Origin: Hexactinellida sp. DTS-2022 | Taxonomy: Eukaryota; Porifera; Hexactinellida | Direction: 5' to 3' | DNA length: 64,000 bases | Assembly (NCBI GenBank): GCA_028753945.1 | Contig: JAPNXP010000006.1 | Span: forward strand, 682,001-746,000 | Shown here: piece by piece, positions 2,027-35,642 of the stretch | Layout of the letters: each line of letters begins with the position of its first letter | Position numbering within the stretch: the first letter of the stretch is position 1 | Program-made: the position numbers and the translations under genes | Notes under the pieces: generated by a model | The model's database searches: none | Told to the model about the DNA's origin: nothing | Seen by the model: only the letters and a program-made list of their open reading frames with translations

Positions 2027-3313
2027 ATGGCAACCGTATCAGGCAATGGGAATGCGGCCCCGGGGCCTGCTAACTTGGTTCCAGTTAGCAACAAGTTGCA
2101 GGACAGAATGAATGCTCTGAGAGAGGTCATTGATAGGCATAAGAGGGAGGTGTTGAGGGTGAGTGGGGAAATGAAACAGCTGATCGAAGCCAGGGCACAG
2201 CTGGTACTCCGGGAGCTGGAGGGCATATGGGACCAGGCGAATACCAGAATGAACTGCAAGAGGGAAGAAGTGAACAGAACGATCGAAGAAATAAACAAAC
2301 GAAAGAAAGAAATGGAAGATTTATTCAAAGGCTTGAGTCCGACGGAAATCCCTATCATCGAAATAGATAAAGCCATCAACTCCGTGCGAAGAGAGATGGA
2401 CACATATATTCCTTATGTTAAGCTCAGCTGGAGAGCTAGCGAGCTGCGGGAGAGCATACAGAGACTGTGTGCTTGTGAACAGCTCAATGTAGCGTTCAGG
2501 GAAGACACCAATGTTAGACTCAAGTGGGGTACATGTGGTAGAGGGACGGGAGATAAGGAACTGAGGAATCCATGTGGTATAGCTATAGATTCTATGAATA
2601 GTAGAATATTTGTAGCTGATGCGGGTAATAACAGAATACAGATATTCTCTTTTAATGGAGACTGGGTTCAAACTCTGGAAGATGAGCAAATGAAAGATCA
2701 AAGAAACATCAATTTTGTACACAATTCAGTGTTTGTTCAGTGCAGCAAAACAATTGTGAAATTCAATAGAACTAGTTTGGCCAGAGAATCTCACAAATCC
2801 TATGATTATCCCCTATCAGGAATCTGCACAGATGATACTAGTGTATATATGTGTGCTTTCAACAGAATGGAGCTAATAGTGCTAACTCATGAATTGATTG
2901 AAGAGAGACGCATGCCTCTAACCACTCAGTACAAACAAGAAGATACTCATATCATCGATATCTCACTAGCCAAAGAAGAGTTCTATGTTCTGCTATCTGG
3001 ATCAGAGTATCCAATTCAATCCTTCTCCAAACAAGGCACTCTAAACAGATGCATTATTCACAGAGAGTTGTTGTCGGATAATGTTTATTGTTTCTGTTTA
3101 GATCAACAACTGAATATACTGGTAGCAGATAGAGGTAGCGAACAAGTCAAGATATTCTCAAAAGAAGGAAAACTAATAACTCAATTTGGCAAAGAAGGAT
3201 CTGAGAAAGGAGAGTTCAGTGATCTGACAGGAATAGCAGTTGATGACTCAAATAATATTATAACAACAGATTGGAAGGTCAATTACATGCTACAGGCATT
3301 CTCTCCGAAGTGA
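2027..3313 (+). CDS. Coiled-coil NHL-repeat protein (TRIM-like, no RING or B-box)
   Basis: Intronless, 428 aa. Residues about 20-110 are rich in Glu, Arg, Lys and Leu and look like a coiled coil (RHKREVLRVSGEMKQLIEA...), the position a TRIM coiled coil would occupy. From about residue 170 the chain consists of NHL-type beta-propeller blades. The first is clear (NPCGIAID, IFVADAGNNRIQIFSFNG) and the last two are clear (ILVADRGSEQVKIFSKEGK; GEFSDLTGIAVDDSNNI). The blades between are degenerate. Known NHL propellers of TRIM2/3, TRIM71 and Brat bind RNA or protein. There is no RING, so ubiquitin-ligase activity is not expected from this chain alone. The ATG at 2027 is the first in frame, and its context (ACATGGC) is reasonable. 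An AATAAA at 3340 follows the stop. Such B-box-less proteins are often large lineage-specific families in invertebrates; the exact role is unknown. Confidence 0.85.
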   Translation: MATVSGNGNAAPGPANLVPVSNKLQDRMNALREVIDRHKREVLRVSGEMKQLIEARAQLVLRELEGIWDQANTRMNCKREEVNRTIEEINKRKKEMEDLFKGLSPTEIPIIEIDKAINSVRREMDTYIPYVKLSWRASELRESIQRLCACEQLNVAFREDTNVRLKWGTCGRGTGDKELRNPCGIAIDSMNSRIFVADAGNNRIQIFSFNGDWVQTLEDEQMKDQRNINFVHNSVFVQCSKTIVKFNRTSLARESHKSYDYPLSGICTDDTSVYMCAFNRMELIVLTHELIEERRMPLTTQYKQEDTHIIDISLAKEEFYVLLSGSEYPIQSFSKQGTLNRCIIHRELLSDNVYCFCLDQQLNILVADRGSEQVKIFSKEGKLITQFGKEGSEKGEFSDLTGIAVDDSNNIITTDWKVNYMLQAFSPK

Positions 3314-5468: not shown

Positions 5469-6176
5469 TTAACACACTTTGTAAACAATGTAGCAACCAA
5501 TGACAGGTAAATCGCCATAATCCATATGAGAATAATCATCTAAAATGCGACTGATCTCATTCCACACACCATCCGCTTGCATTTCTTCCAATTTTTGTTT
5601 ATATCCGAGTTTTTCATTTTCCAGATTCTTCTCTCTGAAGGAAATACACACCAATCCGCCTGGCTTTACAAAGCTTGCCATTTTATCCAAGGTTTCTGAT
5701 ACCAGGTCTCCAAGCACAAAGCAACCGATACTAACAGCATGGTCAAATTGCTTATAGTATTTCTCCATATCATCATTATTCAGGTCACAAAGAATGAATT
5801 CATTGTAAACATCCTTCTTCTTCGCCTCCTCCAACATACCAGGACTAATATCCATAGCAACTATATTGGTGTACCCGCTCTGTTCCTTCAGCATCTGTCC
5901 CACGGCTCCTGTCCCAGCTCCCACATCCAGTATCCTCGTGTCTTTAGGGCAATTCATCTCATTCAGGTATTTGGACAATTCGCGAGCCCCAATGGATTGT
6001 AAGACGCACTTTCCTTTGTCCGAAACCTCATCATAGTAATAGGCATTCCGGTCATATAATTCCTGGACCTCTTTGGACCCTAGCTCTTTGGTGTCATCTG
6101 AATGTCTCGATAATATGTATTTGTACAACTCAGTTTTCTTGTCTTCTTCTGTAAAATTTGTACCGTCTGATGCCAT
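5469..6176 (-). CDS. METTL27-like SAM-dependent methyltransferase, copy 1
   Basis: Intronless, 235 aa, class I methyltransferase of the METTL27 (WBSCR27) type. Motif I is RILDVGAGTGAVG (about residues 87-99). The acidic post-I strand VAMDISPGMLEEAKKKDVY, ILCDL and VKPGGLVCISFR follow in the order seen in METTL27. The substrate of this family is not established. The N-terminal 65 residues and last 30 residues differ from copies 2 and 3, while the middle of about 135 residues is almost identical down to synonymous sites. The tail combines VWNEISRILDDYSHMD, as in copy 2, with a DLPV.G..IV.KVC end, as in copy 3. The N-terminal FTEEDK..ELYKY matches the siblings, so the start is secure. It is divergent from copy 2. 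Confidence 0.9.
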   Translation of the reverse strand: MASDGTNFTEEDKKTELYKYILSRHSDDTKELGSKEVQELYDRNAYYYDEVSDKGKCVLQSIGARELSKYLNEMNCPKDTRILDVGAGTGAVGQMLKEQSGYTNIVAMDISPGMLEEAKKKDVYNEFILCDLNNDDMEKYYKQFDHAVSIGCFVLGDLVSETLDKMASFVKPGGLVCISFREKNLENEKLGYKQKLEEMQADGVWNEISRILDDYSHMDYGDLPVIGCYIVYKVC

Positions 6177-8936: not shown

Positions 8937-9589
8937 TAATATATTTACTAGTTTATCGATGTACCAAATGCTATTCTGATAAATACAAAAGGGTACACAA
9001 AAGGAGCGCGCTCCAAAAGTGAGGACCGCTGTTAGTTTAAATTTAGTTTCTATAATGAACAACATAAAATATAGATATTATCCTTTAGTGTAATTTATGT
9101 CAATTACACTGATAAACTCAATTTAAAATTGTTAAACTTGTTTCTTTGTTTCTTTGCCCGGGAATTTGGGGTTTTCACTTGGCTAGTGGCTGTTTAGTAA
9201 ACCATTTAAAAATGCAACTACAATTTCTTTAGATATCTTCTGTTTCCCATGGTTCATAATCTCTAAATGGACGTCCAACCATATACTTGCAGGGGTGGAA
9301 ATAGCTAGCTGTTAATAGAAAATTTGAGTTGTTAACAGCTTTTGTTTATTTAAATAAGTTGCTCCGCGCAAATTGTATCTGCAAAAAAATGGCTGTCCCA
9401 CCCCAGAAAATAGTGCATATTAGAACAACCCTAACACGGGTATATAAAATAAAATAAAATATCCGATCTACTATTAGGTCAACCGATTATAATAACTGCT
9501 AAATGCGTTGTTAACAGCATGTCAAGGGACTAATAATTATTTCAATGTATCTCCTTTGATATCTTATAGGAGACTTTTACTAATGTTAT

Positions 9590-9907
9590 GAGATGAGGCC
9601 ACGTACTAGTATGAAGACTAGACGCTCTAGCTGACCCCATCCCATAGGGATGTTAAGTGTGTGGTTTCGTCCCATTCCAGGGACTCATCAGGAGGGTAAC
9701 CCTCGACCACCATGCGTACTGCCGCACCTCTCGCTCCAGCCCGTGGCTCCTGCGAGTGCCGTACTTCCCATGTATCCATAGTCCTATACTATGGTTACCA
9801 GTCGTACTGCCGGACTATCTACAGACTACTCATGTAGTGTCCCGTACTTCCACCTAGTGCCTTTCCCAAGGACACTACTCCTGAAGGCTCTAGGTGATAC
9901 TCGTCAC
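9590..9907 (-). mobile_element. Hammerhead-ribozyme element (retrozyme-like), approximate limits
   Basis: A GC-rich island of about 300 bp in AT-rich DNA. Read on the minus strand it is almost a continuous series of hairpins: CACCTAG/CTAGGTG (9851-9857 with 9890-9896), a 7-bp perfect stem at 9776-9794 (CCATAGT/ACTATGG), GCAC-CGC paired with GCG-GTGC enclosing AGCC/GGCT, a hammerhead at 9661-9710, CATCCC/GGGATG (9638-9652), and two alternative CTAG stems at 9606-9630. The words GTACGG and GGCAGTACG recur. Possible degenerate target duplication: ACTAATGTTAT (9579-9589) versus ACTAATATAAT (9908-9918), 9 of 11 matching. The 66-codon plus-strand ORF inside is not credible. Retrozymes and hammerhead SINE-like elements have this size and structure; the exact class is undecided. 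Confidence 0.6.
9661..9710 (-). ncRNA. Hammerhead ribozyme, type III topology
   Basis: The minus strand contains every conserved part in order. Stem III strand GTGG is followed by the GUC cleavage triplet (9705-9710). Stem I is GAGGG-TTA-CCCTC (9692-9704). The core CTGATGA spans 9685-9691. Stem II is GTCCC-TGGAAT-GGGAC (9669-9684). Then come the core GAAA (9665-9668) and CCAC (9661-9664), which closes stem III by 4 bp plus the A-U pair. Predicted self-cleavage lies after the C complementary to position 9705. All 14 stem pairs plus the A15.1-U16.1 pair are canonical, and no catalytic base is missing. Stem III is open to the flanking RNA, so a 4-bp stem may need help from neighbouring structure or a dimer. 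Confidence 0.85.
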
Positions 9908-10153
9908 ACTAATATAATTTGAATTGAAATTGCATTGACAGTGAAATAACGATTTGCTTTTAACTGCCCCTCTTAAAATCGAAAAAGTCACATAATTTTA
10001 CATATTAATAATTAATTAATTAAGAAAGCTGCAAGATACTAACTTGCTTGGCATAAATACTCATAATGGTCAAGTGCGCTTTTGTGTAAATCGCTCATAT
10101 ATCCTATACAAATGAATACTGAGTAAATATGCTCATCAATTATTCATGAGGAC

Positions 10154-10200: not shown

Positions 10201-10905
10201 ATGGCAGAAGTAGATTACCAATTCACAGACGAAGACAAAGAGAGTGAGTTATACAAATACTCACTGACCAGACATGTCGATGAGGACAAATTTGGAAGCA
10301 AAGATGTGCAGGAATTCTATAACCGAAATGCCTCTTATTATGAAGAGTTTATGAAGAAGGCAAGCTGCGTTTCCCAAATTCACGGAGCTCGCGAATTGTC
10401 CAAATACCTGAATGAGATGAATTGCCCTAAAGACACGAGGATACTGGATGTGGGAGCTGGGACAGGAGCCGTGGGACAGATGCTGAAGGAACAGAGCGGA
10501 TACACCAATATAGTTGCTATGGATATTAGTCCTGGTATGTTGGAGGAGGCGAAGAAGAAGGATGTCTACAACGAATTCATTCTTTGTGACCTGAATAATG
10601 ATGATATGGAGAAATACTATAAGCAATTTGACCATGCTGTTAGTATCGGTTGCTTTGTGCTTGGAGACCTGGTATCAGAAACCTTGGATAAAATGGCAAG
10701 CTTTGTAAAGCCAGGCGGATTGGTGTGTATTTCCTTCAGAGAGAAGAATCTGGAAAATGAAAAACTCGGATACAAACAAAAATTGGAAGAAATGCAAGCG
10801 AAAGGTGTGTGGAATGAGATCAGTCGCATTTTAGATGATTATTCTCATATGGATAAGGACGAAAACAAGGTTAGGGCATTCTACATGGTATTCAAAGTAT
10901 GCTAG
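10201..10905 (+). CDS. METTL27-like SAM-dependent methyltransferase, copy 2
   Basis: Intronless, 234 aa, the same family as the genes at 5469 and 13264. The SAM-binding motif ILDVGAGTGAVG and MDISPGMLEEA are intact, as are LCDL and the KPGGLVCISFR strand. The region 10392-10797 (about 406 bp) differs from copy 3 at only two sites that I can count, both synonymous, while the preceding 190 bp encode a clearly divergent N-terminus (MAEVDYQFTDEDKESELYKY). The C-terminus ends MVFKVC, as in the siblings. Head-to-head with copy 1 (4 kb apart) and in tandem with copy 3 (2.4 kb apart). Confidence 0.9.
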   Translation: MAEVDYQFTDEDKESELYKYSLTRHVDEDKFGSKDVQEFYNRNASYYEEFMKKASCVSQIHGARELSKYLNEMNCPKDTRILDVGAGTGAVGQMLKEQSGYTNIVAMDISPGMLEEAKKKDVYNEFILCDLNNDDMEKYYKQFDHAVSIGCFVLGDLVSETLDKMASFVKPGGLVCISFREKNLENEKLGYKQKLEEMQAKGVWNEISRILDDYSHMDKDENKVRAFYMVFKVC

Positions 10906-13263: not shown

Positions 13264-13977
13264 ATGGCGTCAATGAGTACCAAATTCACAAACGAAGATA
13301 AAGAAACTGAATTATACAAATACACACTAACGAGACAAGATGATGCTAGCAAACAGAAACAGCCAGGGAGCAAAGAAGTGCAGGAATTCTATGACCGAAA
13401 CGCCTCTTATTATGATGAATTTGTGGAGAAAGGAAACTGCATGTTCCACTTCAATGGAGCTCGTGAATTGTCCAAATACCTGAATGAGATGAATTGCCCT
13501 AAAGACACGAGGATACTGGATGTGGGAGCTGGGACAGGAGCCGTGGGACAGATGCTGAAGGAACAGAGCGGGTACACCAATATAGTTGCTATGGATATTA
13601 GTCCTGGTATGTTGGAGGAGGCGAAGAAGAAGGATGTCTACAACGAATTCATTCTTTGTGACCTGAATAATGATGATATGGAGAAATACTATAAGCAATT
13701 TGACCATGCTGTTAGTATCGGTTGCTTTGTGCTTGGAGACCTGGTATCAGAAACCTTGGATAAAATGGCAAGCTTTGTAAAGCCAGGCGGATTGGTGTGT
13801 ATTTCCTTCAGAGAGAAGAATCTGGAAAATGAAAAACTCGGATACAAACAGAAATTGGAAGAAATGCAAACGAAAGGTGTCTGGAAAGAGATCAGTAGCA
13901 TTGTTGATGATTATACTTTTGAAGCTAAGGATGGTTTACCTGTCAATGGTTCCTTCATCGTTTGGAAAGTGTGTTAA
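13264..13977 (+). CDS. METTL27-like SAM-dependent methyltransferase, copy 3
   Basis: Intronless, 237 aa, third member of the local family. N-terminus MASMSTKFTNEDKETELYKY; SAM motif ILDVGAGTGAVG, MDISPGMLEEA and KPGGLVCISFR all intact. It has a three-residue insertion relative to copy 2 near residue 35 (KQKQPGS) and its own tail (SIVDDYTFEAKDGLPVNGSFIVWKVC region), while the core is practically identical to copies 1 and 2. The start ATG lies directly after a T-rich tract next to the TTAA element, and no TATA box is seen. Function as for the siblings: a methyltransferase of unknown substrate. Confidence 0.88.
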   Translation: MASMSTKFTNEDKETELYKYTLTRQDDASKQKQPGSKEVQEFYDRNASYYDEFVEKGNCMFHFNGARELSKYLNEMNCPKDTRILDVGAGTGAVGQMLKEQSGYTNIVAMDISPGMLEEAKKKDVYNEFILCDLNNDDMEKYYKQFDHAVSIGCFVLGDLVSETLDKMASFVKPGGLVCISFREKNLENEKLGYKQKLEEMQTKGVWKEISSIVDDYTFEAKDGLPVNGSFIVWKVC

Positions 13978-33752: not shown

Positions 33753-35642
33753 TTAATCACTTGAAAATTCATTATACTCCTGGTTGATGATGGGGCCAAT
33801 TTCATGTTCTGAGGTTTCACTTTCCGCAAGGAATCCACTGTTATCTTTCGAATTATTTATCAAAACTTCACTCATTTCATTATCTCTATATTTAGTTTTT
33901 CCTGTCACCTTATCCCATATATCAAATACCGCACCCTTCCCATCTCTATCTTCATCTTTAATGTCTTCAGATTGCCTCAACCAAATTCTTAGTTTCCAAG
34001 TCACAAACACCATAATTACCAACATTGTGATCAACATGCCAAGCGCTATAAGTGATACAGACACTAATCCTATTTTCTTTATATTACTACCCATACCAGT
34101 CACCTTACTATCTGCATACGAGAACTTTATACACATATTGCTAGTACTAAATGGATATGTGTTGTTTGTTTCGAATGGGACAGCTGCTAATACGAAATAG
34201 TAACATTCATTATGTTTGTATGCATTTTTGTTGACAACGAAATCGAACATATATTCGATAGGCAGTAGGTCAGGTGAGAGGATTTCCTGTGTAAATGGAA
34301 CCGGGATTTCTGCATTAGAAGCTTCATCTAGCGTGCTAGCACTACTGCTATCGAAGTGAGTGGGGAGAGTTGTGTATTGTGGCCATGCTACGAGTAAATA
34401 GCTACTTATCTCAACTTGAGGCTCTGTTGGTTCTAATTGTATGCTGAACGGATGTATTACTGATTCCCCTTCCAATGAATACTGACTCCCTGATATAATA
34501 GGAACAGATGGATTCTCAATTTTTATTGATTTGGTACGGAATTTGAAGTCTTGCTTTGCATATATAGTATAAGCCATTGAATCTGATAGCGGCTTTGCTT
34601 GTATACTACATTTGTATTGAGTAGCCGGGTTCAGGCCTTCGAGATTCAGGATGCTACCTCGCATGTTAGACGTTCTCCACTCCAAAACACGCGCACTTGT
34701 ACCGCTAATCCTTTCAGTTTCATGATCTGCCACACACATAACACTCAATTCTGAAGTTTTTCGATTCTCCAGTTCCTCTCCTAGTATAACATTTGCTGAA
34801 TGGATATGAGACCTTATTCCTATTATTTCCACTGCCATATCTTCCTCAAGATCTTCTTCTATCTCAGATAAGGGAATCACGAGTTGCTCACTACAGTTCT
34901 TACGCTCTCTGTGGTTAACTCTTTCAATCGAGCAAACTTTAACAAATGCAAACTTTTCAGCCTCAATTTGACTCCCATCCAAACGTATATTTGCCCTCGA
35001 ATCCAATCTCTGTACAACTTCAGTCGTGTGCAGCATTTTATCAATGCTCTGATAGCTCCTGTCACTACCATAGTTAATATCGATGAGAAAAAAATTATCC
35101 TTCAAACCTGGAAATGGAAAGTCCCATGAAATTTTGAGTGTATTAAACTCTCTTTTTGCCTTCACCATAATAGGTGCAATATTAGGATGCATTAATCGCA
35201 TTGATCCGGTGGGTATAGAATACTTTGTATTGAAACAAGCGAATTTATTGCTACAAGACACTAAGCGCTCTCTAAGGATTGCACATACAATAACACATGG
35301 TCTGTTTGTCTCGGGCATGTTCTTAATGACAGATTCAAATTGCGTATTTGGTACTTCGGCTAGAAGCTCTGTGTTTGGAAGTGAATGACTTTCTTCATAA
35401 GTTTTATTATGAATGCAATTGTAGAGTTCAAATCTATCATAGGCAAGGGGGGATCGATCAAAAGACCAATAAATCCAGGCCAAATGGCTATTCTGTATAT
35501 CAGGCCTTAAGTGTGAAATTATCGGATAATTTCCACCTTTGTATTTATATCTGTCACTCTTACCAGTCGCAATATGTAGAAAAACAAAGAAAAATGCGAG
35601 AAATAATGTCAAATACAACTTTTTCAAAACAATTAGGAACAT
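33753..35642 (-). CDS. Type I membrane receptor with FN3-like domains, paralog 1
   Basis: Intronless, 629 aa. Signal peptide at about 1-27 (FLIVLKKLYLTLFLAFFFVF). A Cys-containing N-terminal domain spans about 28-165. Two or three fibronectin-III-like domains follow (ISWDFPFPG at about 190; LEGLNPATQYKCSI at about 340; EISSYLLVAWPQ, then CYYFVLAAVPF at about 480), and a transmembrane segment lies at about 522-552. The tail of about 75 aa is acidic, with YRDN and YNEF tyrosines but no kinase or phosphatase domain. The membrane-proximal part recalls the juxtamembrane FN3 of receptor tyrosine phosphatases, but no named family is recognised. The gene at 38410 is its paralog, sharing the SW.FPFP, C-x(8)-NC, EWRT, GL.P.T.Y.C and NxCYYFxL motifs. 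It is likely a cell-surface adhesion or ligand-binding protein (inference). Confidence 0.8.
   Translation of the reverse strand: MFLIVLKKLYLTLFLAFFFVFLHIATGKSDRYKYKGGNYPIISHLRPDIQNSHLAWIYWSFDRSPLAYDRFELYNCIHNKTYEESHSLPNTELLAEVPNTQFESVIKNMPETNRPCVIVCAILRERLVSCSNKFACFNTKYSIPTGSMRLMHPNIAPIMVKAKREFNTLKISWDFPFPGLKDNFFLIDINYGSDRSYQSIDKMLHTTEVVQRLDSRANIRLDGSQIEAEKFAFVKVCSIERVNHRERKNCSEQLVIPLSEIEEDLEEDMAVEIIGIRSHIHSANVILGEELENRKTSELSVMCVADHETERISGTSARVLEWRTSNMRGSILNLEGLNPATQYKCSIQAKPLSDSMAYTIYAKQDFKFRTKSIKIENPSVPIISGSQYSLEGESVIHPFSIQLEPTEPQVEISSYLLVAWPQYTTLPTHFDSSSASTLDEASNAEIPVPFTQEILSPDLLPIEYMFDFVVNKNAYKHNECYYFVLAAVPFETNNTYPFSTSNMCIKFSYADSKVTGMGSNIKKIGLVSVSLIALGMLITMLVIMVFVTWKLRIWLRQSEDIKDEDRDGKGAVFDIWDKVTGKTKYRDNEMSEVLINNSKDNSGFLAESETSEHEIGPIINQEYNEFSSD

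Follow-up and report, generated by a model that had tools for sequence, protein, structure and literature searches.

A type III hammerhead ribozyme in a solo LTR of a glass sponge: a probable LTR retrozyme with a candidate hairpin primer

The hammerhead ribozyme on the minus strand of the window (the whole 64-kb stretch of DNA that was analysed) very likely serves to process the RNA of a non-autonomous LTR retroelement (an LTR retrozyme), of which the window holds a solo LTR and for which we infer a hairpin-primed cycle. Judged by its sequence anatomy, the family is an animal LTR retrozyme variant. Since animal retrozymes are described as non-LTR elements with type I hammerheads in the part of PMC7229834 considered here, the sponge LTR form is a new variant relative to that literature. 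Because the window's family has no tRNA primer site, it was classified as a retrozyme-like variant and not as the plant form.

Hammerhead Ribozyme and Solo LTR of the Window

The window was searched with cmscan, and a match to the Rfam model RF00008 (Hammerhead_3) was obtained at 9712-9659(-), complete over model positions 1-54, with a score of 58.2 bits and an E-value of 2.5e-10. It was the single Rfam match at the gathering threshold, which is 48.5 bits for RF00008, across the 64 kb. The original prediction had described a complete type III hammerhead on this strand and had proposed such a covariance search. The significant match bears out the description, and the core bases CUGAUGA, GAAA and GUC, with stems of 5, 5 and 4 bp plus A-U, were all located in 9710-9661(-) (Table 1). 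The conserved core, the loop-closed stems I and II and the open stem III are those of a type III ribozyme. The minimum-energy fold of 9712-9659 was the hammerhead structure (-19.4 kcal/mol). This fold energy was unexceptional (z of -1.11, with 31 of 200 shuffles equally good), and the significance of the hammerhead was therefore taken from the covariance score and the family, not from the fold energy. The ribozyme is very probably functional as the predicted self-cleaver.

The 3-nt loop of stem I had been considered unusual, but the Rfam type III consensus has the same UUA loop on this stem. The rarity of type III hammerheads in animals, which had also been pointed out, agrees with the relevant parts of PMC7761336, PMC7229834 and PMC6155905, and the exceptions named there are an atypical one in mammalian Clec2 genes and the HDV-like RNAs of toad and termite.

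The repeat containing the ribozyme was delimited at 9908-9584 by BLAST against 60 fetched loci. With its flanking TTAG, this repeat has the anatomy of, and on that ground is, a solo LTR with a 4-bp target-site duplication. The site had been placed in an intergenic region, but it proved to be part of a multicopy mobile element and not plain intergenic DNA. The GC content of the solo LTR was 0.526, compared with 0.325 for the window. The internal half of the junction hairpin described below was absent from the window copy; as this copy has no internal part, its family membership rests on the sister copies. In addition, the motif GGMAGTACG occurred about four times within the LTR (minus strand) and also in L040, L060, L069, L075 and other families. 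It presumably resembles the bulged-G (loop E) RNA motif.

Table 1. Features of the window and of related copies in the same genome
Feature	Position	Strand	Basis or description
Type III hammerhead ribozyme	9661..9710	-	Rfam match 9659-9712, fold, covariation
Cleavage triplet GUC	9707-9705	-	Read from sequence; cleavage expected after C 9705
Stem I, GAGGG / CCCUC	9704-9700 / 9696-9692	-	Loop UUA
Core CUGAUGA	9691-9685	-	
Stem II, GUCCC / GGGAC	9684-9680 / 9673-9669	-	Loop UGGAAU
Core GAAA	9668-9665	-	
Stem III	9710-9706 / 9665-9661	-	4 bp + A-U
Solo LTR, 325 bp	9584..9908	-	TGTGACGA...CATAACA; BLAST vs sister loci, end alignment
Target-site duplication TTAG, 5' side of LTR	9909..9912	-	Exact copy
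Target-site duplication TTAG, 3' side of LTR	9580..9583	-	Exact copy
LTR 3' end CATAACA	9584..9590	-	Part of junction hairpin in L040, L069, L012, L046
Methyltransferase-like paralogue	5469-6176	-	
Methyltransferase-like paralogue	10201-10905	+	
Methyltransferase-like paralogue	13264-13977	+	
Single open frame, 5004 aa	14315-29329	-	Intronless; midasin-like by eye
L069			LTR 330 bp, internal 174 bp, LTR; LTRs 99.7% alike; PPT AAAAAGGGAAGGTGA; duplication TACT
L081			LTR 302 bp, internal 73 bp, LTR; LTRs 99.3% alike; PPT TAGGGAAGAGTGA; duplication CTAT
L060			Two LTRs; duplication CTAC
L073			Two LTRs separated by GA only (two-LTR junction without internal part); duplication CTCC
Exact 4-bp duplications			Window TTAG, L034 GCAT, L045 GTAC, L035 TTAT, L037 CTAT, L033 AGTA, L052 TTAC, L023 GTGT

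The solo LTR starts 293 bp upstream of the ATG (10201) of a methyltransferase-like frame on the opposite strand, the second of three paralogues in the window, which it adjoins. The ends of these paralogues differ and their middle, well over 100 residues long, is near-identical, which might reflect homogenisation through gene conversion. The 5004-aa intronless frame fits the single-exon trend of glass sponges, in which many single-exon genes are reported in the part of PMC10282587 seen. Furthermore, the window protein at 33753-35642 was 57% identical to its one named relative, a protein of the glass sponge Oopsacas minuta, with six other relatives up to 91%. For the protein at 2027-3313, the named matches at 48% identity or more were those of Oopsacas minuta (among 120 of 325 matches listed), and the best two named ones, LOD99_2935 and LOD99_2970, carry close numbers. 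On these grounds the host appears to be a hexactinellid.

Distribution and Covariation of the Ribozyme Family

In the sponge genome (112.4 Mb, 18 contigs), RF00008 was scored at 68 places, 64 of them above the cut-off, and in 0 of 14 control genomes. The core pattern CTGATGAGN{12,18}CGAAACC matched 331 places (170 + 161), a raw count of pattern matches, and the reversed pattern matched none. Relatives of the window LTR were found at 15 places at least 97% alike over at least 316 bp, plus a diverged tail (50 matches listed), from which it follows that the family was active recently. Accordingly, a chance fold was rejected on the Rfam score and the excess of core matches over the reversed pattern, and an isolated ribozyme was ruled out by the RF00008 places, the cores and the near-identical LTRs, at least 15 in number.

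The covariation was assessed with 28 distinct ribozyme copies hand-picked from 62. The three stems were 95.2% paired, and 5 of 15 pairs had changed on both sides. This count was reached by 24 of 500 shuffles and the covariation score by none of the 500. Stem II was 100% paired with compensatory changes in 3 of its 5 pairs, and stem I showed none. Some copies had broken stems, with at least 4 of the 28 rows unpaired at the outer pairs of stem III.

In the end alignment, 20 rows covered both LTR ends; the 8 rows from the multi-LTR loci L012, L040 and L069 were excluded from the duplication count, which left 12. Exact 4-bp duplications, each different, were present in 8 of these 12 (Table 1), and the remaining four, L038 (3 of 4 bases matching), L027, L047 and L017, had no exact duplication. 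Moreover, an automatic scan found TG..CA ends with an exact 4-bp duplication at 20 of 89 ribozymes, two of which, L030 and L070, are doubtful owing to ill-fitting inferred LTR starts, against 7 of 267 displaced-flank controls. Open frames of at least 130 aa near ribozymes numbered 83 in the 60 loci. Among the hammerhead places listed, no integrase within a hammerhead element was recognised by eye in the family search, in which 150 of 706 candidates were scored.

Structure of the Complete Copies

The type III hammerhead was found in TG..CA LTRs, namely in the window solo LTR and in the two-LTR copies L069, L081 and L040, and complete copies carried it in both LTRs. A polypurine tract (PPT) preceded the 3' LTR in L040, L060, L069, L072 and L081 and was absent from the window solo LTR. 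A search with the PPT pattern gave five places, four of them in L040 and L069 and the fifth at C1:14184175 (L082), with 2 mismatches and without a recognised element. The internal parts of L069 and L081 lacked protein-coding capacity. The predicted unit RNA of L069 has 504 nt, a GC content of 0.54 and 67% of its bases paired.

A second hammerhead class was observed in L081, L078 and L074, with stem II GGCC.., the triplet GUA and a 6-base stem I loop. Its members were not among the RF00008 matches; the type III fold was obtained for L078 and L081 and not for L074, and L078 and L081 carry the tRNA-Gly primer site. In addition, the rearranged copies L072, L051 and L047 break near the CTGATGA core, perhaps because the ribozyme arrests the reverse transcriptase or makes it jump.

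Primer Sites and the Junction Hairpin

Two kinds of primer region were found beside the hammerhead-bearing LTRs. Families B and E have TGGTGCATTGGCC(G)GGAA at the start of the internal part, a sequence complementary to the tRNA-Gly(GCC) 3' end, and a tRNA-Gly(GCC) gene is present in the same genome (ARAGORN). This primer site occurred at eight places (seven exact, one with one mismatch), all of them in hammerhead-bearing elements: L072, L077, L078, L079 (two), L080 (two) and L081. The hammerhead is damaged at one of the two L079 places.

In the window's family a tRNA primer-binding site was absent, the internal parts of L069 and L040 starting with a hairpin and not with TGG. The sequence beside the LTR does not start with TGG in L012 and L046 either, which leaves all four without a match for a tRNA 3' end at that position. 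In this hairpin, the last 7 LTR bases and the first 7-8 internal bases form one arm, whose complement follows 11-20 bases later. Across the clean set of four junctions not created by an inverted LTR (L040, L069, L012 and L046), the arms were 98.3% paired, a percentage biased by the location of the arms by complementarity. Compensatory changes affected 5 of 15 pairs, including positions within the LTR end, and 0 of 500 shuffles reached this count. An eight-row set gave 9 of 15 compensatory pairs; it is weaker evidence than it appears, as four rows are palindromic and complementary for that reason alone. In a wider scan, a strong downstream hairpin was found at 21 of 86 ribozymes, at least three of them not at the junction (L034, L049 and L069-889), compared with 9 of 220 control stretches. 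The hairpin arms thus provide the window's family with what characterises a self-primed element, namely RNA of its own that is complementary to the site next to the LTR. Hairpin self-priming is plausible in this family.

Palindromic Copies

An LTR followed closely downstream by an inverted LTR, or part of one, was found in L012, L021, L025, L040, L047 and L048 (6 of 60 loci chosen by hammerhead score). Further inverted-LTR copies were L070, L071, L075, L077 and L078, of which L070 and L071 had been selected as convergent pairs. The centre of the palindrome is the junction hairpin in L025, L040, L048 and L071. Exact 4-bp duplications lay outside both LTR starts in L025 (CGTA), L040 (CTAT) and L071 (ATAT), so the integration machinery apparently accepts palindromic DNA; no duplication was found for the palindrome L077. 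These LTR>hairpin<LTR copies look like fossils of self-primed cDNA.

The inverted LTR of L012 belongs to another family (72% vs 97% to the window LTR in BLAST), a sign that a second RNA may have served as template. It begins beyond the hairpin arm, as does the inverted LTR of L070, and several primer positions or template jumps must therefore be allowed. In L077 and L078, both from families with the tRNA-Gly site, the junction to the inverted LTR follows ..ACCAA, which corresponds to the start of the primer site; it looks as though an RNA end or the CCA end of a tRNA had primed synthesis at this point.

Candidate Autonomous Partner

The Gypsy element L083 has an intact 1431-aa frame with protease, reverse transcriptase, RNase H and integrase, and a 4-bp duplication (ATAC). 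Its PPT/LTR-start box, GTAGAGGGGAGTGA/TGTCATGA, is similar to that of L081, GTAGGGAAGAGTGA/TGTCATGTAG. The internal part has no TGG after the LTR, and over bases 3-16 it is the complement of 14 nt in the element's LTR, a length that 0 of 5000 shuffles attained (best 13). A self-complementary primer site of this kind is a feature of Tf1-type self-priming. No local hairpin was found after the L083 LTR, and its LTRs gave no BLAST match to the retrozyme loci at E up to 1. Since L083 is one element, chosen for its long integrase frame, with neither an LTR match nor a local hairpin, that it mobilises the retrozyme elements is a guess.

Proposed Life Cycle and Alternative Explanations

By analogy with plant retrozymes, a two-LTR transcript would cut itself at both hammerheads and release the unit RNA. 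Once closed into a circle by ligation, this RNA would undergo reverse transcription and integration through Gypsy-type machinery. Solo LTRs such as that of the window might arise by copying of the LTR alone or by later LTR-LTR recombination. In the window's family, reverse transcription would start at the hairpin of the LTR/internal junction and not at a tRNA. The 3' arm would pair with the LTR-adjacent bases and, after a nick, prime the copying of the LTR; the hairpin would thus act as a local primer in cut or circular RNA. If the hairpin were retained, palindromic LTR>hairpin<LTR cDNA would result, which might also be able to integrate. It is tentatively suggested, at slightly below an even chance, that glass sponges carry self-primed LTR retrozymes, in which the hammerhead removes the RNA-end primer of a Tf1-like Gypsy partner, the LTR-side hairpin substitutes for it, and the palindromes with a single 4-bp duplication are the fossils.

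The same LTR retrozyme might use its hairpin as an RNA dimerisation or packaging signal, with an unrecognised tRNA or tRNA fragment as primer and palindromes formed by template jumps or self-integration of cDNA. The hairpin loops contain palindromes as in dimer initiation sites (GTATAC in L025/L071, GTTAAC in L070, ATTAAT in L012/L048 and CATATG in L069), families B and E use a tRNA-Gly site in the same genome and have inverted copies too (L077 and L078), and the role of such hairpins is left open in the available part of PMC5445492. However, the lack of TGG leaves no tRNA 3' end that fits beside the LTR in L040, L069, L012 and L046, and the hairpin itself is the palindrome centre in four copies. 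This explanation was considered rather unlikely. Less probable is a hammerhead that persists as a relic with no present activity. The activity is a prediction from sequence and some copies have the broken outer stem III pairs, but the compensatory changes in stem II, the LTR pairs 99.3-99.7% alike and the 15 copies at 97% or more are at odds with a relic.

Explanations other than an LTR retrozyme have very little probability. If the motif came from a metazoan non-LTR retrozyme or from a hammerhead satellite, with Penelope-like elements moving it, its setting would be the one described for most animal hammerheads (PMC7229834, in part), but this origin is contradicted by the type III topology, the TG..CA ends, the 4-bp duplications, the PPT and the tRNA-Gly sites. 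The type I non-LTR form was rejected on the Rfam type III match and the LTR anatomy. Equally hard to credit is a DNA transposon or foldback element with an incidental hammerhead and with palindromes as its normal form. Palindromes with 4-bp duplications do exist (L025, L040 and L071), but in the longest copies, both solo and full, the ends are direct and not inverted, and the direct LTR-internal-LTR order with PPT and tRNA-Gly site (L081), like the solo LTRs, fits reverse transcription.

Comparison with Known Systems and Significance

LTR retrozymes with type III hammerheads have been described from plants, as far as the sources seen go, and proposed as the origin of plant viroid-like RNAs. 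According to the parts of PMC4918200 and PMC7761336 considered, the sponge elements resemble them in the type III hammerhead within LTRs of about 300-400 bp, the non-coding internal part, the PPT, the 4-bp duplications, the solo LTRs and the Gypsy-like PPT/LTR-start box, and the GC-rich, self-paired unit RNA predicted for L069 is a further likeness. The window's family and the plant retrozymes have in common all the defining features tested except the tRNA site. On the other hand, the sponge internal parts are of 73 and 174 bp, whereas those of plants, in the descriptions seen, are of about 300-600; the sponge elements have a tRNA-Gly site, or a hairpin without tRNA site, in place of the plant tRNA-Met site; and the host is an animal, with palindromic copies. 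The metazoan non-LTR retrozymes are likewise small non-coding hammerhead elements in animals, but those treated in the consulted part of PMC7229834 are of type I, in tandem repeats, and without LTR, primer-binding site or PPT. No report of LTR retrozymes in animals was found in the open-licence literature searched, which is weak evidence of novelty.

Tf1-type LTR retrotransposons self-prime with element RNA, using the mRNA 5' end. The sponge elements would be similar in that the element's own RNA is the candidate primer. However, the hammerhead would remove a Tf1-style 5' end, and the sponge candidate lies just 3' of the primer site. Such self-priming elements are cited in PMC5445492 and PMC6934838, as far as these were seen. 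The same excerpts describe the fungal GalEa Copia elements with the Conserved Hairpin Site (PMC5445492), in which a hairpin directly after the 5' LTR replaces the tRNA site, and biv-TRIM of bivalves (PMC6934838), small animal LTR elements with a hairpin instead of a tRNA primer site. Their arms are of 9-10 bp, compared with about 15 bp, including the last 7 LTR bases, in the sponge. Palindromic insertions are not mentioned in the parts of the two descriptions seen, and the word 'hammerhead' does not occur in PMC6934838. Helenus and other animal TRIM elements (PMC10886601, in part) are also miniature LTR elements with 4-bp duplications, but have a tRNA-like sequence and not a hammerhead in the LTR, and tRNA primer sites.

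A plant-type anatomy in an early-branching animal would mean that the partnership of ribozyme and LTR is much older, was repeatedly invented or was transferred. The junction hairpin together with the palindromic insertions makes it possible to test what purpose is served by the hairpins that several LTR elements have in place of a tRNA site, and the same material bears on the reverse transcription of hammerhead-cut RNA without repeated ends. If true, hairpin self-priming would suggest a role for the unexplained hairpin sites of the GalEa and TRIM elements.
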